A DNA stretch of 44,748 bases from an uncultured Pseudomonadota bacterium (GTDB taxonomy: Bacteria > Bdellovibrionota_B > Oligoflexia > Oligoflexales > CAIMVM01): NCBI GenBank assembly GCA_903844895.1, contig CAIMVM010000180.1, positions 1 to 44,748 on the forward strand, given 5' to 3'. Of this stretch, positions 8,057 through 26,709 are shown in pieces. The first letter of the stretch is position 1; every line of letters starts with the position of its first letter. The notes beneath the pieces were generated by a model. It searched no databases and was not told the origin of the DNA. It saw only the letters and a list, made by a program, of their open reading frames with translations. The position numbers were made by a program, and so were the translations under genes.

Positions 8057-9854
8057 AAGTCAGCCTCAAAGTATCACCATCTTGGTCCTGAATCAGGTTG
8101 AAATTTGTTTTTCTTTTGATAGTAAAATTTAAAATAAAGTTAAAAATGGGGTCGTCACTTTGCTTGAAGTCCGGCGATGCTATGGTGCTCCAGTCTGGTA
8201 CAACAGTGGTGGAAATCCACTCTAGTGTGATTACGTCCCCTTCTGAAGTTAAGGAAAAAAATAGAGACGAATCTTTAGGCGCTAAAAAACCAAGACTTGA
8301 AGCTAGTGTTACGATCAACTTACGGTCGTCAACAAGTGGAGAGAGTATCTCCAGTTCATAATGAAAGTCTAAATATCTTCTTTTTAATAAAGCTTTTACA
8401 TCAAATCGGAGATCATCTTCAATGCGGTCACTTGGAATCGCTTCATTGGCGATATGTCCTTCCTCTAGGCGCGTGCTACTTAAAATCGCTCGTATAGCCA
8501 TTTGCATGTCGGCGAGATAATAACTGATGTCAAGAAACGGTTTTGGATCTCTCGGATTATTCTTCAAGATTCTTTCACACAAAACTTTTATCTTAGCAAC
8601 GGGAGTATTTAAGTTGTGACTGATAAGTGAAATAAAATTATATTTAATATCAACTTTATTTAGTAAAAACTTTTCTTTGTTTTGAGCAGCCTTGTATCGA
8701 GAATATTCCAAGGCATATTTTACAAATCCTCCACCTGTTAAGCATAAAACGCTTAAGAAAATGCAGTTGTAGTCAGGGAAGTATAAATGGAAATGCTTAA
8801 TCGAAATAATGTTTCCAAAGACAATAATACATGCGGAACTCAGAAAGAAAGTCGTTGCAAATGCAATGCTAAAGTTGAACAGAAATAGAAGCAGTAACAA
8901 GGGGACGGCGTAGGTGATGGATAAGGCAACCTCGCTCCTAACAACTGATATCCAGCCATGACTCAGAATATTTTCGACGCTTAAGGCCAAAAATTCATGG
9001 ATAGGGGTTCCATTTGCCCGTAAGGGTTTGCTTTGACTGTCGTAGAGCGAAGGTAGTCGAGCAATATCCTCAGGAGCCGTCATGCCTGAAGAGCCTTGCA
9101 AAAGGTCAGTTCCTAAAAAGACAATTTTGTTTCGGAGTTTATCTGCTGGTATAGAGTTTAGGTCTCCATAGCTATATAGCGGAATAGATCCTCTTTTTAG
9201 GGGGGTGAATATGTAAGATGGATTTGCATTCGGAAGCAAATTGCTTAAACTTCTGTTAGAAACGTCGCCGTAGGTTTCAGCTAGCTTCTGAATCGCCAAA
9301 TAGTTCCAATTAGGATTAAAAGGGCAGACAGTTCTACTTTTTCCGTTACAAAAGTCAGCCACTAACACTTCAAAGATACCAGGAAAAACTTTCTTCAATA
9401 CCTCTGCTCGGTCGAAAGAGGAGATGATTGATAGCTTAGATTTTTCAGGGAAAGTTGTTAAAATATCTCTAATTTCCATTGGTGTGGGGTCGGTTGGGAA
9501 AAACCAATGCAAATAGATGTGTTGGGGGTCTGATTTTAATATTTTTTTGGCAATTTTCAAGTGATCGGCAAGAGATATGTTTTGAACCGCTCCAGACCTC
9601 TTTAACTCAAAGTGCTTCAAATCTGAATCAGTTAAAGAAAAAGCAACAACACTTTCTGTCAAATTACTGCGCTCACCCGCGAGAGCAAGCTCAAACTCTA
9701 AGAGATCTAATTTCTGAAATGTAGATTTTTGAGAATTTCCTGTTAGCTCCATTGTGAAATTACCATAGAAAACCCAGACGGTTCCCATAAGCACAAGAAC
9801 TACAAAGGAAAGTGGGTAAATGATTTTGATCCACGCCAATAAAAATTTCTTCAT
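8031..9854 (-). CDS. CHASE2-type sensor protein with intact His box and degenerate ATPase domain
   Basis: The 607-residue product has an N-terminal transmembrane segment (about 10-30) and a CHASE2-like extracytoplasmic domain (to about 300, ending KIVFLGTDLLQ and ANGTPIHEFLALSVENIL). Three transmembrane helices (about 308-375) and a dimerisation domain with a normal phospho-acceptor box follow: SLISHNLNTPVAKI, His 413. The rest (about 470-607) has the length of a histidine kinase ATPase domain but lacks its motifs: no N-box Asn (ASSLGFLAP where NAxxYAP is expected), no DxGxG and no GxGLGL. It should not bind ATP normally. Its ATG overlaps the stop of the upstream kinase gene as ATGA. See the finding on complementary loss. 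Confidence 0.85.
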   Translation of the reverse strand: MKKFLLAWIKIIYPLSFVVLVLMGTVWVFYGNFTMELTGNSQKSTFQKLDLLEFELALAGERSNLTESVVAFSLTDSDLKHFELKRSGAVQNISLADHLKIAKKILKSDPQHIYLHWFFPTDPTPMEIRDILTTFPEKSKLSIISSFDRAEVLKKVFPGIFEVLVADFCNGKSRTVCPFNPNWNYLAIQKLAETYGDVSNRSLSNLLPNANPSYIFTPLKRGSIPLYSYGDLNSIPADKLRNKIVFLGTDLLQGSSGMTAPEDIARLPSLYDSQSKPLRANGTPIHEFLALSVENILSHGWISVVRSEVALSITYAVPLLLLLFLFNFSIAFATTFFLSSACIIVFGNIISIKHFHLYFPDYNCIFLSVLCLTGGGFVKYALEYSRYKAAQNKEKFLLNKVDIKYNFISLISHNLNTPVAKIKVLCERILKNNPRDPKPFLDISYYLADMQMAIRAILSSTRLEEGHIANEAIPSDRIEDDLRFDVKALLKRRYLDFHYELEILSPLVDDRKLIVTLASSLGFLAPKDSSLFFSLTSEGDVITLEWISTTVVPDWSTIASPDFKQSDDPIFNFILNFTIKRKTNFNLIQDQDGDTLRLTFNQAGPIP

Positions 9855-11710
9855 TTCCGTATTGCCCTAAGTATGAAGTCCGTTCCTTTTTCAGGCGCAT
9901 CTCGTACGTCTATTTTGAGGCCCAAGGCATCGGCAAAAAACTTTGACAAATAGAGTCCTAGACCCGTGCCTTTGACTGTAAATGCGCGATCGTCCTTAAT
10001 TCTGTAGAATTTCTCAAAAATTTTTTCTTTAAATTCATCGTGGATTCCAGGTCCTTCATCGCGAATTACAAGTGATTGAATGACATCTGTATTCTGAAAC
10101 GAAAAAATCGTAATTTTGGAGTTTGCTGGCGCGTACTTTATGGCGTTGCTGAGTAAATTAAATAAAATCGGCTCTAAGTAAACCTCGTCGCTTTTGATCA
10201 AAGTATGATTTTTAAGATTGATTTTAACATCAATCCCTTTTGCGCTTGCTCCGATTTGTGACACAAGTCTTTCTAGAATTGGGACGAGACGGACTAGTTT
10301 GAGGTGGGTGAGTCCAGGACTACTATCATTTAACGTTACTAGGGTATTTATGTTTTTTAGATATTCAATAAGCTCCTCACCGCTTGAAACCAAATCTTTA
10401 AGAAACTCTGAATTTTCCTTAGAAATGTCGGCGCTCGCGGATTTAGCGGAATCTAATATATGAGACGTTTGATTCATAAGGCGTCTACTAAACTGATCTA
10501 AAAATCGTTCGTGTAATTTTGAGAGATTGTCATGAGCTTTAATTTCGATGCGAGACTTCAAATTTGAGGCAATTACTCGAGTAGTTGAGCTGAATGCTCC
10601 AATTGCAGAAAAAATAATGCCATAGACAATGATTCTCGCCATGGGGACTTCAAATCCTAGTGTAGATTCTAGAAGAGCTGTTATAGCAATAATCGAAACA
10701 AAGATGCCTAAGCTTATTATAACGGCAGCGCCTGGGGGAAAACTCCAAACGCGATAGGCACCGATACAGATGAGCAAAAGGAAAGCCCAAGAAATGAGGC
10801 TTGAAATAGGCACCAAAGATTTCTCATGAAGTAAATTATCGATGGCGACTGCTTGAATCAAAGCTACGGGCGTACCGGATGAACCAAGCTCATGGGTACC
10901 ATCTGAATCCTGAAAAGGAGTGTTTCCAAATGTAGCTTCTGGGCCACCTGGAATTCTTTTTCGATAGGTGTCAAAGTAGAAAATAACAATTTTTTTTGTA
11001 AGATCTAATCCTGCCAGAGATTCAAGGGGTACTTCATGCAACAAACTTGGTCGGAAGTAGTTTAGCTTCAATTCAGGGAGGCGAGGATTGAATTCCCTAG
11101 TGCCTTCTTCAAACTTGGCGCTGTTCCAAATGTAATCAGCTATTACAGAGGAAATACTTTCTTGAAGTCTTTGGGCGTCCTCTTTTTCTAGAGCAGCACC
11201 GGCCACTGCGGGAGCGATGGTTGAGTACGACTTTCCGCTAAGTTGATCCGTCAATGGAACAGCGACGATGGTGTCTTTGTTGTATTCGCGGCTAGTTTGA
11301 GCGGATCTCAGCTGTGGAAATACAGAGGCTGAAACACTCGTAAAAAGAGAATCGTCTGTCATACTTCCGATCAAACCTAAAAACAAGTTTTTCTTGGAAC
11401 TCAGGGAATTAGAAAGTCTATCTAAATCGTGTTTCGAAGCGTTTATTTCCCGACCCTGTACAAAAAAAACTGCAGCGGATATGTCTTTTGTTTTTAATTT
11501 CGAAAATGCGTCAACTATTGAGGATGTAACATTGCTCTCTTCTTTCTTAAGTTTGACTACAATGAGGCGATCTGAGGGGGTTGAGAAATGAAGCTGAGCT
11601 CGCATTCTAAAGGCAATTAAATCTAACTCCTCGCCGATTTCAGGCCTGGATTCGAAAAAGGCGACTAAAATCGCCAAAAAAATCAAGACTACAACTGATG
11701 AGTATTTCAT
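9851..11710 (-). CDS. CHASE2 histidine kinase with intact ATPase domain but Arg at the phospho-acceptor position
   Basis: The 619-residue product has an N-terminal transmembrane helix (5-20), a CHASE2 domain (about 25-300, ending KIVIFYFDT and GTPVALIQAVAIDNLL) and three transmembrane helices (about 303-378). A coiled dimerisation region and a full ATPase domain follow: NLLSNAIKYAP (N box, Asn 522), DEGPGI (551), FEKFYR and KGTGLGLYLS (581). Where a kinase should read S-H-E-L-R-T-P, this one reads SRRLMNQ (Arg 409), so the canonical phospho-acceptor is missing; another His (417) lies 8 residues on. The gene begins at ATG 11710, sharing one base with the stop of the radical SAM gene (TAATG), and overlaps the next kinase by 4 bases. 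Confidence 0.88.
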   Translation of the reverse strand: MKYSSVVVLIFLAILVAFFESRPEIGEELDLIAFRMRAQLHFSTPSDRLIVVKLKKEESNVTSSIVDAFSKLKTKDISAAVFFVQGREINASKHDLDRLSNSLSSKKNLFLGLIGSMTDDSLFTSVSASVFPQLRSAQTSREYNKDTIVAVPLTDQLSGKSYSTIAPAVAGAALEKEDAQRLQESISSVIADYIWNSAKFEEGTREFNPRLPELKLNYFRPSLLHEVPLESLAGLDLTKKIVIFYFDTYRKRIPGGPEATFGNTPFQDSDGTHELGSSGTPVALIQAVAIDNLLHEKSLVPISSLISWAFLLLICIGAYRVWSFPPGAAVIISLGIFVSIIAITALLESTLGFEVPMARIIVYGIIFSAIGAFSSTTRVIASNLKSRIEIKAHDNLSKLHERFLDQFSRRLMNQTSHILDSAKSASADISKENSEFLKDLVSSGEELIEYLKNINTLVTLNDSSPGLTHLKLVRLVPILERLVSQIGASAKGIDVKINLKNHTLIKSDEVYLEPILFNLLSNAIKYAPANSKITIFSFQNTDVIQSLVIRDEGPGIHDEFKEKIFEKFYRIKDDRAFTVKGTGLGLYLSKFFADALGLKIDVRDAPEKGTDFILRAIRK

Positions 11711-13056
11711 TATAGGCTTTCAAGTAGTTTAGGATCTTCTGCGTTTATAGCTAAATAGGCCTCTAAGGCAAGACTAAGTTCAATCTCTTGCAGTCTACAA
11801 AATATCACGCTCGGCTCAAACCATGATCCATGCTTTAGTTTGTTCTCTTGAAAACAGCCGCCCCTACAATATTTTTGCATCCAGCAGGTATTGCAAGGAG
11901 CGTGATTGCCTGAACGGTAGTCTTGAAATTGTTCCAGTTTTTTCAAATCGAGACCCGATCTTACATCGCCAATCTTTTCCTCTGCTGATTCTGTAAATCG
12001 ATGGCAAAGGAAATATTCACCTTTGGTTGATACAGACATATATCCAATACCGGCTCCGCAGGTCATGCGATTTACATACCCGCGGTGTATAATCCGCAGG
12101 CTCGCAGCTATATTTGTAATTCGAAGTAGTTTCTTAAAGTCTTTTTTTTCTATGAGGCTGTGAACCGTCTTTGACAAGGCGTCTCCTAAGAGCTCTACAT
12201 CTTGTTCGTCAATGGATTGACTTATATCCGAACTCGCAACTTTAGAGTAAGAGAGTTTTGCTGAAAAATCCGAAAGAATTCCTTCAATCGAATCCGCAAA
12301 ATCATGAACAGCATTCTTGCTAATCGTTGCGCGAATACTCATATTGAGTTCTTCTAACTCGTCTTTAAATTTTATCATTTTCTTTTTAACAAGCGCGGCA
12401 GCATTTTGCTTTTTGTCCATTAAAAGCCGCTGTTTCGCTTGTGCTTTGTCGCCATCATAGGAGATTTTGATTGAGATGGCGTGGTCTTTGAGGAATTTTA
12501 GTTGGGTAGAGTTTAACAGTGTTGCATTGGTGGTCATACCAAAGGTGTAAGAAGTTTCTTTGTTTTGCTCACACCAAGCTACTACCTCTTTTATAAGGGG
12601 AAAATTTAATAAAGGCTCGCCACCAAAAAAGGCAATATGAAAACGCTTCTTTCCTTTCGAAAGACTTTCAACGGCTTTTATGGCAAGATCAGAATGCATA
12701 GTGGAATCATGTCCATAATTGCCATCACCTGCATAGCAGTAGGTGCAACGAAGGTTGCAGCTTTCTTCAACATTTAAAGCGATCGATACGATGTTAATGG
12801 GCTCTTTGGTTAAGGGAGTCCCTGGGCCTAGGGCCTCATGGGCTCTTTGTAAAAATGATGCGACTTCTAGCGGGATCGTTCTGGGAACTCCTGAGGGCTC
12901 CATGGGCTCAAACGACTCAAAAATAGACTTTTCCACTTGAATTATTGTCGATGTAGGCAAATGCAGTAGCCCGTACTGCTTTCCATTGGAAAAGGGCTTC
13001 CATGGTAACAATTGACTACCGGGGTTCCATAATTTGTCCTGCAAAGGAAACCTCAT
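11710..13056 (-). CDS. Radical SAM/SPASM peptide- or protein-modifying enzyme
   Basis: The 448-residue enzyme has the radical SAM cluster motif C100-NLR-C104-TY-C107 and the GGEP motif (FFGGEPLL). Its C-terminal SPASM domain is complete: CX12GX4C (CGAGIGYMSVSTKGEYFLC), then CX2CX5CX3C (CNTCWMQKYCRGGC) and a last Cys about 18 residues later. This spacing ligates two auxiliary 4Fe-4S clusters, as in sulfatase-maturing and quinohemoprotein-maturing enzymes. The first 80 residues include a small domain (QYGLLHLPTSTIIQVEKS) that could be a leader-recognition element. It heads a three-gene operon with two CHASE2 kinases. No sulfatase or obvious peptide substrate is adjacent. ATG at 13056 lacks a close ribosome binding site; TATTAT four bases upstream hints at a leaderless message. 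Confidence 0.9.
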   Translation of the reverse strand: MRFPLQDKLWNPGSQLLPWKPFSNGKQYGLLHLPTSTIIQVEKSIFESFEPMEPSGVPRTIPLEVASFLQRAHEALGPGTPLTKEPINIVSIALNVEESCNLRCTYCYAGDGNYGHDSTMHSDLAIKAVESLSKGKKRFHIAFFGGEPLLNFPLIKEVVAWCEQNKETSYTFGMTTNATLLNSTQLKFLKDHAISIKISYDGDKAQAKQRLLMDKKQNAAALVKKKMIKFKDELEELNMSIRATISKNAVHDFADSIEGILSDFSAKLSYSKVASSDISQSIDEQDVELLGDALSKTVHSLIEKKDFKKLLRITNIAASLRIIHRGYVNRMTCGAGIGYMSVSTKGEYFLCHRFTESAEEKIGDVRSGLDLKKLEQFQDYRSGNHAPCNTCWMQKYCRGGCFQENKLKHGSWFEPSVIFCRLQEIELSLALEAYLAINAEDPKLLESL

Positions 13057-22900: not shown

Positions 22901-22996
22901 CATGTTTCCGCGTATGTTTCCGCTTATGTTTCTGCTTATGTTTCCGCTTATGTTTCCGCGTATGTTGCCGCGTATGTTGCCGCCTATGTTGCCGCC
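22901..22996 (+). repeat. 12-bp tandem repeat, eight units
   Basis: Eight consecutive units of TATGTTTCCGCT-like sequence (first unit CATGTTTCCGCG). The left units carry TTTCC, the last three TTGCC, so the array grew by stepwise duplication with divergence. The 12-base period keeps one reading frame open on both strands. Confidence 0.95.
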
Positions 22997-23048
22997 CAAG
23001 AGTGTCGCCAAATTTCAATTGATCGGTAGTTTTCGACGAGCCATATAA
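22902..23048 (+). CDS. Possible ORF encoding tetrapeptide repeats (48 residues)
   Basis: ATG 22902 opens a frame over the tandem repeat, giving MFPR-MFPL-MFLL-MFPL-MFPR-MLPR-MLPP-MLPP followed by a 16-residue tail ending GSFRRAI. AGGGTGAG lies about 6 bases before the ATG, a reasonable ribosome site. The repeat is Met- and Pro-rich and hydrophobic. Its stop overlaps the ATG of a second small frame (23048-23140, MSEVFKKMKPAFPRM, 30 residues) as TAATG. Neither frame resembles a known protein. It may be chance, since any 12-bp repeat without a stop stays open. Confidence 0.25.
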   Translation: MFPRMFPLMFLLMFPLMFPRMLPRMLPPMLPPKSVAKFQLIGSFRRAI

Positions 23049-23138: not shown

Positions 23139-23166
23139 AAAAAATCGATGACCTATCAGCCGATTT
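23139..23166 (-). terminator. Rho-independent terminator downstream of the MATE gene
   Basis: On the minus strand AAATCG (from 23166) pairs with CGATTT (to 23142), with an inner TGA/TCA pair, and runs into six T residues. It lies 28 bases past the MATE stop codon and closes the peptide/GRDP-like/MATE unit. Confidence 0.6.
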
Positions 23167-23193
23167 AAATGAAGGGTGCTTTAGGCGGCATCA

Positions 23194-24462
23194 TCAAGGG
23201 CTCCATCTTGAAAAGACCAGTTTAGCATTATATTTAAGATAAAGAACTCTGCACATCGATGGTGCCAGGTAGGCAACAGCTAAGGTCAGTATGGGTGTTT
23301 GCAGATAGCTTCCCAATATAAGAAGTGGAATGGTGACACAAAGAGTCCCCAAGATGTCGGTACTTGCTCCGATGTGAGAATTTTCCGCAACTTTAAGAAT
23401 CGCTGTGTCGCGTAAACTGTGAATGCCAATGAGGTGGGCAGCAAACGGCGCAAGTGTAAAAAAAACTGTGGTCCCATCTGCAGGCATACCTAGACTGGCA
23501 ATTACGATCCCACCTAGTATGAGGCAAAGTGATGTTACAGTCACAGTTAGGTTATGCTCAAATTTGCCAGCTTCCTCTAAACATGATTTTTTTGTGCCCA
23601 CAGCTTGGCCTATAGCTTGGACAGTCAGAGAGGCTGCCGCAGCCCACGGGGTTAAAAAGATTCTCCCAAGTCGATAACCTAAGGCCGAAGCATTTGCTAC
23701 CTGGGCCGAATAGAACAAATTCATGATATACATTATTACAAATGGCGTGGCGTTCAATGCTATGATCCACAAAGACTCACCTAAGATGATCATGCGCCCT
23801 GTCCGGAGAAAGCCCCGTATGTCGATCGCGACTGGGGGACATAAATGAACTATTCTATAAACGCAGATGACCACTGCGGCTATTTTTGATGCTAGGGTAG
23901 CCCAGGCAATGATCGTGAAGGTCGGGCCATCACTTTGACCATAGTTGAGAGCGTATTCATTTCCGCAAAGGTTAATGATGGCGCTAGCAGCTGCGACGAG
24001 AAGTATCCCTTTTCTGTCCTTAAGTAGGTTGAGCACACTGGCGCTGGCAGCTAAAAAAATGGACATACCATTAGCTACAACAAATAATGTCACATACTGG
24101 TCTTTTCCCGGAAGGCCATCGAAAGATCGAAAAATAAATTGAGAGCAGATCATTTGGACTAGTATAGCTGGCAATGCAAGACCAGCCGTCAAGCATATTC
24201 CAGACCATACGTTTATGTTTCTCTTGTCTTCATTTTTGCTTGATAGAAGTAATATGGAAAATCCCAAAATATTTCCTATCGATGCAAAAGCCATAGACAT
24301 TGTGCTCACGCAATTATGTAGATTTAAATAGAGATGACCCAATTTCCCTGTGTAATACTGATCTATGATTTCGCTCGATTGAGAAATTAGAGCCGCGAGA
24401 CTCAATGCCGCAATGGAAGCCAGTAACATTTGAGTTTTTTCTTGCAATTTACCGTTAAGCAT
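23194..24462 (-). CDS. MATE-family transporter
   Basis: The 422-residue protein is almost entirely hydrophobic with about 12 helices in two similar halves. The N-terminal half has EIIDQYYTGKLGHLYLNLHN, matching the D-x-x-x-x-G-x-LG-x-x-x-L opening of MATE exporters. The second half has a comparable ANASALGYRLGRIFLTPWAA segment. MATE proteins export drugs or small molecules in exchange for Na+ or H+; some export ribosomal peptides such as methanobactin. The ATG shares one base with the stop of the GRDP-like gene (TAATG) and GGAG lies 8 bases upstream. Being coupled to a peptide cassette, the cargo may be the peptide product; this is inference. Confidence 0.8.
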   Translation of the reverse strand: MLNGKLQEKTQMLLASIAALSLAALISQSSEIIDQYYTGKLGHLYLNLHNCVSTMSMAFASIGNILGFSILLLSSKNEDKRNINVWSGICLTAGLALPAILVQMICSQFIFRSFDGLPGKDQYVTLFVVANGMSIFLAASASVLNLLKDRKGILLVAAASAIINLCGNEYALNYGQSDGPTFTIIAWATLASKIAAVVICVYRIVHLCPPVAIDIRGFLRTGRMIILGESLWIIALNATPFVIMYIMNLFYSAQVANASALGYRLGRIFLTPWAAAASLTVQAIGQAVGTKKSCLEEAGKFEHNLTVTVTSLCLILGGIVIASLGMPADGTTVFFTLAPFAAHLIGIHSLRDTAILKVAENSHIGASTDILGTLCVTIPLLILGSYLQTPILTLAVAYLAPSMCRVLYLKYNAKLVFSRWSP

Positions 24463-24818
24463 TACATAAGCTCCGGAAAATGTTTAGCGACTAAATTGAT
24501 TGTAGTATGGAATGGCTCGTGAGCTGATTTTTTCGTGGAGGGTGTGTGATGCATGTATCCACCAAATAGCGCATTGCAGTCGGCGAAATATTTTTGTGTA
24601 TCCAAAATATGCTCATGCCAAAAACTGTCGATGATTTCAGTAGGACTTAGGTTCAGATGGGGGTAACTTATTTTAAGCCAAAGGAAGCTTTTGTATAGAT
24701 CTCTGATTTCTGAGACGTCCCTTTTACTTAAATTAAGGTGTTTATGTGTAGATTTGAAGCGACCGCAGACCGCAGAAAGATCTAGATTATCAAGTTTTTC
24801 ATGTCCTGTTTTAAGCAT
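24462..24818 (-). CDS. Small GRDP-like (DUF1399-type) protein
   Basis: The 118-residue product carries DSFWHEHILDTQKYFADCNA followed by LFGGYMHHTPS. This His/Asp/Tyr-rich block is typical of the bacterial relatives of glycine-rich-domain (GRDP/DUF1399) proteins, whose WHxHxLDTxxYxxDC pattern looks like a metal site. The biochemical function of the family is unknown to me. ATG 24818 is chosen because GAGG lies 6 bases before it; an in-frame ATG at 24830 overlaps that site. It is coupled to the MATE gene downstream and follows a 37-residue peptide gene past a terminator, so it may modify or escort that peptide. Confidence 0.7.
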   Translation of the reverse strand: MLKTGHEKLDNLDLSAVCGRFKSTHKHLNLSKRDVSEIRDLYKSFLWLKISYPHLNLSPTEIIDSFWHEHILDTQKYFADCNALFGGYMHHTPSTKKSAHEPFHTTINLVAKHFPELM

Positions 24819-24847
24819 TATTTTCCTCATTTTTTGCGAAAAAATCT

Positions 24848-24875
24848 AAAAAAAGGAGCATTGATCGCTCAATGC
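24848..24875 (-). terminator. Internal terminator between the peptide gene and the GRDP-like gene
   Basis: On the minus strand GCATTGA-GCGA-TCAATGC is a perfect 7-bp stem with a tetraloop, followed by TCC and seven T residues. It lies about 100 bases after the peptide stop and 30 bases before the GRDP-like start. Partial termination here would give more peptide than enzyme and exporter messages. Confidence 0.8.
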
Positions 24876-24971
24876 CCCGTTCGCCCTATTGAGATTTAAA
24901 TCTTTCTATCGAGCTACTTAACGGCCTGTCCTGATGGAGCTATTAAAATATGTAGCTCAGCAAGCGGCTAA

Positions 24972-25085
24972 TTAAGCGGCTGAGTCATAGAAGCAAGTTG
25001 ATTGCGCGCCTTGAGACCAAGAAAAACGCTTTGCTTTGTCTTTTACTGTGTGTCGAGCCTGATCATTCTTTTTTTTCTGTAGCAT
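24972..25085 (-). CDS. 37-residue peptide, candidate precursor of an exported modified peptide
   Basis: ATG 25085 is preceded by a near-perfect ribosome site (AAGGAG, 6-base spacing). The product starts MLQKKKNDQARHTVKDKAKR, a polar leader-like half rich in Lys and Asp. It ends FSWSQGAQSTCFYDSAA, a distinct half rich in Ser, Gly, aromatic residues and with a single Cys. A leader/core split, a terminator directly downstream, then a coupled putative enzyme and MATE exporter match the layout of ribosomally made modified peptides. I recognise no precursor family. An 8-A tract in codons 4-6 could allow slippage. Alternative: a small regulatory or toxic peptide. Confidence 0.65.
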   Translation of the reverse strand: MLQKKKNDQARHTVKDKAKRFSWSQGAQSTCFYDSAA

Positions 25086-25102
25086 AAAATACTCCTTAAT
25101 TT

Positions 25103-25127
25103 TTTTTGTAGGACCGTCCTACAAAAA
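25103..25127. promoter_or_regulatory. 25-bp perfect palindrome ahead of the peptide gene
   Basis: TTTTTGTAGGAC and GTCCTACAAAAA are exact 12-base arms around one C, ending 17 bases before the peptide ATG and just upstream of its ribosome site. Neither strand has the T-run order of a terminator on the outgoing side. It is a likely operator or a 5' leader hairpin; the LysR-type gene at 25810 is the nearest regulator. Confidence 0.7.
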
Positions 25128-25809
25128 GTTCGTGATTTCTTCCACGAAGAGGCTTGTATTGAAATTTTTGAATCCTCGCAAGATTGGTAAATTGTTTAAA
25201 AATCAATTAGCCATGCATAAAAAGCATGGATTATTTATCCCCAGAAAATCAGCTATATAGTTCGCTCATGTAAAGCGAGATTGCCCAGAGTAGGATTTGT
25301 GAAAGCCGTTAGTTCTTATCATACTCGCTCCGAAAGGCGTAAATAGATAGCCTCTCGAGGGGGTGTCAAATCGGCTTTCGCGCGGCAAAGTAGCTGATTT
25401 TGGTGACATTAGGTGGCGCAACTTAGGTGAGATCCGGCACTATGAGGGGCTCCCACACAGAATCTCTACCTTTTCTCTACCTTTTTTCTACTAGTTGATT
25501 TGAATTTTGATCATCACCTCTGTAACTAGCATTATTAAACCAAATGGGGTGTACAAAACCTATAACAAATGTGTTACCAGATATGCCAAAATGTAGGATC
25601 AGGTTTGTCAAACTTTGAGCAAGTGTGGAATCATAATGCCGCATTCCTTCGGTCCGCTCGGCCGGTGGCTCAAACTATGTGAAATTGACTGGCTCATTCT
25701 CGTCAAATTCCCCATTTGGTAAGGCCAATCTATCTTTAAAGCAAATATTTACTCGATCCGTATAGCTGTTATGGCTATACTTGTTCATCGGGTAAGTGGG
25801 AGTTTTTTC
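25128..25809. other. Divergent regulatory spacer between the peptide operon and the LysR-type gene
   Basis: About 680 bases without a supported gene. It holds an inverted repeat CCATGC-ATAAAAA-GCATGG at 25211-25229. On the minus strand there is a possible promoter (TTGCGA, 17 bases, TACAAG, near 25153-25181) for the peptide operon. No clear promoter for the regulator gene is seen. The T-N11-A type LysR site was not located with confidence. Confidence 0.45.
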
Positions 25810-26709
25810 ATGCTTAAAGATCTGAAAATTGCTGAGCTGCGGATGCTTTGTGAGATACCTAATCAGCCGTCACTGCGTTCTTTGGCGAGAATGTTTGGAG
25901 AGACTCCGCAAAACATGTCAAAAATCGTAAAAAACATGGAACAAAAAACTGGGGAGAAGTTAGTCTTTCGTTCAGCGCACGGTTATGAGCCGACTGAGGC
26001 AGCCTTTCAAATAGCTAAGAGCTTGGAGACTATCGTACTCAAGCTTTCAAATTTTCAGTTGGAAAATAATTCGGAGGAAAACGAAAACGCAACGACGTAT
26101 TCGTTTTGTAGTCGTGCCTTCATGAACTTTTGTTTCGCTCTTTCGATTGTAGAGTCCTTTTCAAATCTCGAATCGCAAATTGGCTTTAGATTTTTAGATG
26201 CTTCTCCTCGAAAGAAAGAAGAGTGGTCCCGTCTAGGTGTGTTGGATATTATTTTGTCGGTTGGCGAGTTGAATCTTTCTAAGGAATGGAGCCAAGAGGC
26301 AATTGGGGAAATTAAATGGGCTTTTTTCACCCGCCTGAATCATCCGCTAGGCCCAGTTGCCACCGTCGCTAAGCTTCAAAAGTATCCGCTGATTTTGCAT
26401 AGCCATATTGATGGGTCACGAGTTTTAGATGGTCTATCCATTGGAGAAAAGAAGCTCGTTCCAAAGATTTTTGGAGCCTATACGGAAACAAATCTGGCTG
26501 CGCTACAGATTGCTGCTAAAACGAACCAAATCTGTTTCGTGCCAGAGGTGATTGTTAAGTCCCTTGGGCTTAATTATCAAGTCCAAAAACTTGTGGTAAG
26601 TGACTTTGGCGATGCGCCTCCCTCACTGATGCTTTACGCGCATAAAGACAGGGTTAAAATGATTCATTTGAGTATTGTAAAAAAAGCAATTTTAAAGATG
26701 TTCGCCTAG
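25810..26709 (+). CDS. LysR-family transcriptional regulator
   Basis: The 299-residue protein has the N-terminal winged helix-turn-helix of LysR regulators: LRMLCEIPNQPSLRSLARMFGETPQNMSK, then EQKTGEKLVFRSAHGYEPTEA. An effector-binding domain follows (about 90-299), ending normally. The first helix pair reads SLRSLARMFGETPQNMSKIVK, slightly unusual but in register. I place the start at ATG 25810 because GGGAG lies 7 bases before it; an upstream ATG at 25771 has no ribosome site. LysR regulators often control the divergent neighbour, here the peptide/GRDP-like/MATE unit across a 680-base spacer, or their own gene. Confidence 0.88.
   Translation: MLKDLKIAELRMLCEIPNQPSLRSLARMFGETPQNMSKIVKNMEQKTGEKLVFRSAHGYEPTEAAFQIAKSLETIVLKLSNFQLENNSEENENATTYSFCSRAFMNFCFALSIVESFSNLESQIGFRFLDASPRKKEEWSRLGVLDIILSVGELNLSKEWSQEAIGEIKWAFFTRLNHPLGPVATVAKLQKYPLILHSHIDGSRVLDGLSIGEKKLVPKIFGAYTETNLAALQIAAKTNQICFVPEVIVKSLGLNYQVQKLVVSDFGDAPPSLMLYAHKDRVKMIHLSIVKKAILKMFA

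Follow-up and report, generated by a model that had tools for sequence, protein, structure and literature searches.

Methanobactin operons encode the precursor MbnA, the proteins MbnB and MbnC, the MATE exporter MbnM and the TonB receptor MbnT (PMC3621798). In the borosins, the enzyme carries its substrate as a C-terminal tail (fused form) or acts on a separate, leader-bearing precursor (split form) (PMC8429565). Fused and split forms also occur among the burpitides, in which plant BURP-domain proteins act as copper peptide cyclases (PMC11253845). The GRDP proteins of plants have been studied in stress and development (e.g., PMC4299439).

The window, i.e., the whole 44,748-nucleotide stretch analysed here, from an uncultured Pseudomonadota bacterium, carries a minus-strand cassette consisting of, in order, a peptide ORF, a hairpin, a GRDP-like gene and a membrane-protein gene. 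To our knowledge, no GRDP-like protein has a known catalytic activity. The nearest functional parallel is methanobactin: its layout, in which a short precursor precedes a compact enzyme core and a MATE exporter, has a counterpart at some GRDP loci with GRDP as the putative enzyme; some GRDP loci also have TonB receptors, and the MATE protein of one locus, L185, resembles MbnM. In contrast, no sequence similarity between GRDP and MbnB or other MNIO proteins was detected, nor could any precursor be recognised as belonging to an Mbn-type family. MNIO genes of the MbnB/TglH/ChrH type (PF05114) were absent from the window and from the surroundings of GRDP in the 15 genomes or records searched; 10 of the 15 carry them elsewhere, one about 12 kb from GRDP in genome G413, and in the window's own genome they lie on contigs C1 and C169. 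Because the defining MNIO is not beside GRDP, the cassette was not filed under the methanobactins.

The likeness to borosins and burpitides is one of architecture only. The GRDP family shares its fused and split forms with the borosins, whereas GRDP is an all-helical domain of 120–160 residues rather than an N-methyltransferase, and its putative cores are centred on Cys. The burpitides likewise join a small domain, in their case metal-dependent, to tandem core repeats in one protein, or use a stand-alone precursor, and have aromatic residues at their cores; however, they are plant proteins of another family, and the repeats of the GRDP fusions are C-terminal and contain Cys. Neither an N-methyltransferase nor a BURP domain was matched by Pfam or NCBIfam in the scanned GRDP proteins. 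The plant and fungal GRDP proteins (PF07173, formerly DUF1399) belong to the same domain family, as judged by the Pfam matches of relatives.

A radical-SAM/SPASM protein of the window (11713–13056, minus strand) resembles the ranthipeptide maturase PapB (236 bits, cut-off 340). It lies about 12 kb from the cassette and has other neighbours, and a ranthipeptide assignment of the cassette was rejected. It is followed by two genes, of which 9854–11710 encodes a sensor histidine kinase, and no obvious precursor ORF adjoins it; this locus is a candidate second peptide-modifying locus of the window.

No account of a bacterial, peptide-linked GRDP branch was found in the open-licence PMC literature, although it may have been described elsewhere. 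The peptide motifs were not found in open-licence PMC papers, and no curated family describes the GRDP–Cys peptide cassette.

The cassette and its putative precursor peptide

The features of the cassette and its flank are as follows.

25771–26709, plus strand: divergent LysR-type regulator (PF00126/PF03466 slightly below cut-off; NCBIfam LysR models match)
25105–25131, no strand assigned: near-perfect palindrome TTTTTGTAGGAC/GTCCTACAAAAA, candidate operator or 5'-UTR hairpin, read from the sequence
25092–25097, minus strand: AAGGAG, Shine–Dalgarno sequence located six bases ahead of the peptide's ATG, read from the sequence
24972–25085, minus strand: 37-residue putative precursor peptide MLQKKKNDQARHTVKDKAKRFSWSQGAQSTCFYDSAA, an ATG ORF of 37 codons with a Shine–Dalgarno sequence
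24849–24878, minus strand: perfect 10-bp hairpin GGGGCATTGAGCGATCAATGCTCC plus T7, between the peptide and GRDP genes (p = 0.007 against shuffles)
24462–24830, minus strand: GRDP-like protein of 122 residues without a Cys tail (relatives match PF07173; shared invariant residues)
23194–24462, minus strand: polytopic membrane protein of 422 residues, putative exporter (hydropathy; TAATG coupling to the GRDP gene)

This arrangement agrees with the cassette placed at 23139–25127 by the initial annotation, which had named no strand and had also described the 37-codon gene with AAGGAG at six bases (seen at 25085–24972), the perfect hairpin plus T7 downstream of it (24878–24849) and the TAATG coupling, by which the GRDP and membrane-protein genes share one base.

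The N-terminal part of the window peptide is basic, and its one Cys lies seven residues from the end. Within the 940-nt intergenic region, it is the only ATG ORF of 20–65 codons that contains Cys and is led by a Shine–Dalgarno sequence. In dinucleotide shuffles of this region, scored for Cys-containing ATG ORFs of 20–65 codons, one with an equally strong Shine–Dalgarno sequence arose anywhere in 0.8% of shuffles, and one with its stop within 200 nt of GRDP in 0.2%. The peptide also occupies the position at which Cys mini-ORFs are found at 49 of the 72 tail-less GRDP loci described below. The evidence for its translation thus consists of the Shine–Dalgarno sequence, the position and this chance estimate. 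No homologue of the 37-mer was detected, its score against the leader profile of a Legionellales-like order was zero, and the peptides matched no known peptide family in NCBIfam and Pfam.

For the window only, the 37-codon ORF might be a chance or attenuation leader ORF, so that the cassette would comprise just GRDP and the membrane protein. The lack of a homologue, the gap of 141 nt to GRDP (usually 45–95 nt) and the terminator-like T7 hairpin that follows would be in line with this reading, but the strong Shine–Dalgarno sequence, the Cys near the C terminus, the hairpin and the tail-less GRDP all fit the family pattern, and such an ORF is expected by chance at only the frequencies given above. 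We therefore regard it as highly improbable.

The hairpin between the peptide and GRDP genes is a candidate leaky terminator, or a candidate 3' terminus of a peptide mRNA made in abundance. Strong hairpins were observed in 23 of 29 peptide–GRDP gaps, that of the window included, so that the split form retains the order of peptide, hairpin and GRDP; the hairpins are unrelated in sequence, and most of those elsewhere have no U-tract. The terminator claimed for the end of the cassette was not supported: the sequence that follows the membrane-protein gene, from 23194 on, is no more stably folded than its shuffled versions (z = +0.8), and the terminator scan listed none there. Tandem short repeats of the ATGTTTCCGC type lie right past the cassette end (22902–23000, plus strand).

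The palindrome is located directly upstream of the Shine–Dalgarno sequence of the peptide gene, and the LysR-type gene, judging from its position, could regulate the cassette. In Legionellales-like genomes, too, genes assigned by eye as LysR- or HxlR-like adjoin GRDP. Control by iron and Fur was rejected, as no Fur-like boxes were found upstream of the peptides. No known RNA family was found in the window.

The GRDP-like protein and the membrane protein

The GRDP-like protein of the window falls below detection with PF07173. Three of its relatives exceed the cut-off of 22.7 bits (L023, 25.0 bits; L030, 27.1 bits; L038, 25.7 bits) and share its invariant residues, which favours the label GRDP-like. 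A single-sequence scan of genome contigs with the window protein gave no match; an alignment was required. Across 168 GRDP loci, D68, W71, H72, T78, Y81 and H95 are invariant (99–100%), and C85, H94 and P97 are kept at 96%. AlphaFold2 gave a confident, all-helical model of the window's GRDP-like protein (pLDDT 88.9), which matched no fold in the PDB at E ≤ 0.001. From this conservation, we infer that D68, H72, H94 and H95, within the invariant Asp/His(/Tyr/Cys) set, may form a metal or active site that acts on the Cys or its neighbours.

The 422-residue protein had been called a MATE transporter. It is polytopic; however, it matches neither the MatE nor the MbnM profile, nor any other entry in Pfam, NCBIfam or the PDB, and its similarity to an MbnM-like MATE protein of the window's order is weak and confined to 40 residues. 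No relatives were found in its own class or among 369 genomes of another class, making it an orphan across the about 430 genomes searched, and AlphaFold without relatives gave a pLDDT of 39. Its identity as a MATE protein is thus unproven.

Split and fused forms of the GRDP loci

GRDP loci were gathered by tblastn on plasmids, by a search of related genomes and by an alignment-based genome scan, of which 471 confirmed relatives matched one narrow pattern and 80 were retained; genes outside annotated records were called by a simple script. The loci come from Pseudomonadota, Cyanobacteria, Bacteroidota, Nitrospinota, Bacillota and candidate phyla, and 85 of 143 genomes of a Legionellales-like order (the order being inferred) were positive. 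The split/fused comparison covers 159 loci, 72 tail-less and 87 tail-bearing.

A Cys mini-ORF led by a Shine–Dalgarno sequence was observed directly upstream of 49 of the 72 tail-less GRDPs, compared to 12 of 203 control genes (p = 3e-25), whereas GRDPs with a Cys tail of their own had one in 5 of 87 cases, equal to the control. An earlier, narrower scan gave 15/37 against 5/130 (p = 8e-8). Peptide and tail are mutually exclusive (p = 1e-14); sampling is heavy in one order, and all of these p-values ignore relatedness and so overstate independence. No upstream Cys mini-ORF was seen for 23 of the 72 tail-less GRDPs, some of which have a downstream peptide (L025, L034 and L045); that of Stanieria contains MNSQAAFCFLMPEAGFCFL. 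On the GRDP tree, built from a short alignment with many unresolved forks, fused and split forms changed at least three and at most seven times. The peptide and the tail are alternatives, split versus fused, and their exclusivity together with these switches suggests that they do the same job.

For the split loci, the peptide ORF that the initial annotation expected beside homologues of the GRDP-like/MATE pair was found in a Halomonas plasmid and at L185, as it was beside tail-less GRDPs in many phyla, which supports its interpretation. The Halomonas plasmid (NZ_CP130702) encodes, in this order, a 42-residue peptide ending in GGGHCQGGGSW, a hairpin, GRDP and a MatE protein. Two gammaproteobacterial genomes encode peptides that end in GGHCQGGGGW with unlike N-terminal parts, and the core GGHCQGGGxW is common to Halomonas, G413 and G573, again with differing N-terminal parts. 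In the window's order, L185 encodes a 34-residue peptide, GRDP, two TauD-type 2OG oxygenases and a MATE protein (234.8 bits with the MbnM model, cut-off 285), and L187 encodes a peptide ending in CKAKCCRRFH, GRDP and a cytochrome P450-like protein (by eye). The KCCR-type peptide seen at L187, a locus of the window's order, recurs in the Legionellales-like order. Piscirickettsia-type loci combine peptides ending in NCSGNCQS with GRDP, an ABC ATPase and a TonB receptor. Across loci, the neighbours include 2OG oxygenases, a P450-like protein, a JmjC protein, a methyltransferase, ABC transporters, TonB receptors and the MbnM-like MATE protein.

Most of the fetched loci of the Legionellales-like order have peptides of 23–32 residues, with ends such as KGWCGPGTCIG or KCCR. 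Many share the leader M-K-x-x-[LI]-I-x-x-I-[VI]-x-x-K, and the leader is conserved and the core variable within these families. In addition, pN/pS values of 0.27 and 0.39, and synonymous to nonsynonymous ratios of 5:1, 8:2, 6:1 and 5:0 for the closest peptide pairs, indicate coding sequences under purifying selection; the non-coding substitution pattern that would have spoken against the peptide gene was absent from these related families. At many of these loci, peptide, GRDP and regulator stand without a neighbouring exporter or second enzyme.

For the fused loci, three or more A[WFY]C repeats make up part of the tail in 33 cases; many tails have 5–16 aromatic-Cys units, with up to 16 in L092. 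Examples of the repeats are AAWCSLEAGKP, KAAYCVTSAAPS and AFCSIEPSQA, and other tails have Cys-rich ends, e.g., HACHVPTSCACRVPGACK or ARSC.PQ.CP. The Cys in GRDP tails is preceded by Y, W or F in 288 of 496 instances. Conservation does not extend to the CFYD-type tail proposed from the window peptide; the recurring feature is a C-terminal Cys, or several, frequently next to an aromatic residue.

Several fused loci have characteristic surroundings. The Burkholderiales fused GRDP genes with A[WFY]C repeats (L039, L043, L044, L092, L096 and similar) sit directly behind a gene for a large membrane protein of about 950–1140 residues; that of L044, the sole one scanned, is a CHASE-PAS-GGDEF-EAL cyclic-di-GMP protein. 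In Alteromonadales, the fused GRDPs of L032, L036, L046, L072 and L094 have the tail HACHVPTSCACRVPGACK or close variants and are preceded by an 87-residue protein (in L046, a near-cut-off ParE_like match), and in most of them also by proteins of ~240 and ~157 residues. L018 (Azospirillum ramasamyi), L031 and L067 have the tail ARxCxxQxCP followed by a gene for ~230 residues, a methyltransferase in L018, where a TauD-type gene follows as well, together with one for a large ABC-ATPase-like protein. The small mobilizable E. coli plasmid pEC16II (L022, 3620–6830) encodes a GRDP-like protein with the Cys-rich end GSVCGCSGKGCGAGCSCNSR, an ABC transporter and a JmjC/cupin (JmjC_2) protein; among 5,426 complete E. 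coli genomes, 30 carry the whole set, on plasmids only, and it is a candidate fused-form peptide system in a tractable host. GRDP proteins with Gly-Cys-rich tails (GGGGCGGG) are also encoded on large viral contigs of IMG/VR (L108, L109 and L112).

The fused forms bear on the possibility that the locus encodes a bacteriocin or toxin with its immunity protein or antitoxin, the cationic peptide being active unmodified and GRDP shielding the producer. The peptides are indeed short, cationic and amphipathic, two-gene modules with a regulator occur in Legionellales-like genomes, and there are plasmid copies. However, Cys repeats are fused to GRDP in dozens of genomes, which would make little sense for an immunity protein, and the defence and phage libraries (padloc, phrogs) gave no match, so that this reading seems to us very unlikely.

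Proposed role of GRDP in peptide maturation

Since a Cys peptide usually lies alongside GRDP or is fused to it as a tail, GRDP probably processes the peptide. The sequences are best read as a new class of RiPP-like peptides whose maturation partner is GRDP. We consider it reasonably probable that the cassette makes a Cys peptide that is bound and matured by its dedicated GRDP-like partner and exported by the adjacent membrane protein. A more tentative proposal, to which we give slightly less than even weight, sees in the GRDP-like domain a hitherto unrecognised metalloenzyme that modifies peptides, has a fold without counterpart in the PDB and defines a new phylum-spanning class of fused and split RiPPs, acting on Cys. 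Within such a class, the fused form would be a self-substrate with tandem cores, the split form would be guided by a leader, and the target Cys would often lie beside an aromatic residue.

According to this proposal, the peptide leader would deliver the core to GRDP, with fusion standing in for the leader as it does between the fused and split borosins and burpitides, and the hairpin would keep the peptide mRNA in excess of the GRDP mRNA. The His/Asp site of GRDP would alter the Cys or neighbouring residues, extra oxidases (2OG, P450-like, JmjC) or methyltransferases may tailor the peptide in some relatives, and the adjacent membrane protein would export the matured product. The TonB receptors at some loci suggest peptide uptake, and with the tailoring enzymes of relatives they make a metal-binding or signalling/antagonism role of the product plausible.

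Alternatively, GRDP could be a leader-binding carrier or metallochaperone, with the unmodified Cys peptides or tails serving as ligands of Cu, Zn or Fe and the transporters moving the metal–peptide complex. Tails rich in Cys and Gly/His, the TonB receptors of the Piscirickettsia-type loci and the loci that consist of peptide and GRDP alone would all suit such a carrier, which we nevertheless consider unlikely: the 2OG, P450-like, JmjC and methyltransferase genes at several loci imply covalent chemistry, the invariant Asp/His/Tyr/Cys set of GRDP looks catalytic or metal-binding, and the peptides have no upstream Fur-like box.

The GRDP–Cys peptide family is apparently widespread and undescribed. 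If its proposed role in maturation is true, a natural-product class is present in hundreds of genomes, and GRDP-like proteins, hitherto known mainly from plant stress genetics, gain a first testable function. The switch between fused and split forms would offer an easy route to the chemistry, because one polypeptide may contain both the enzyme and its substrate.
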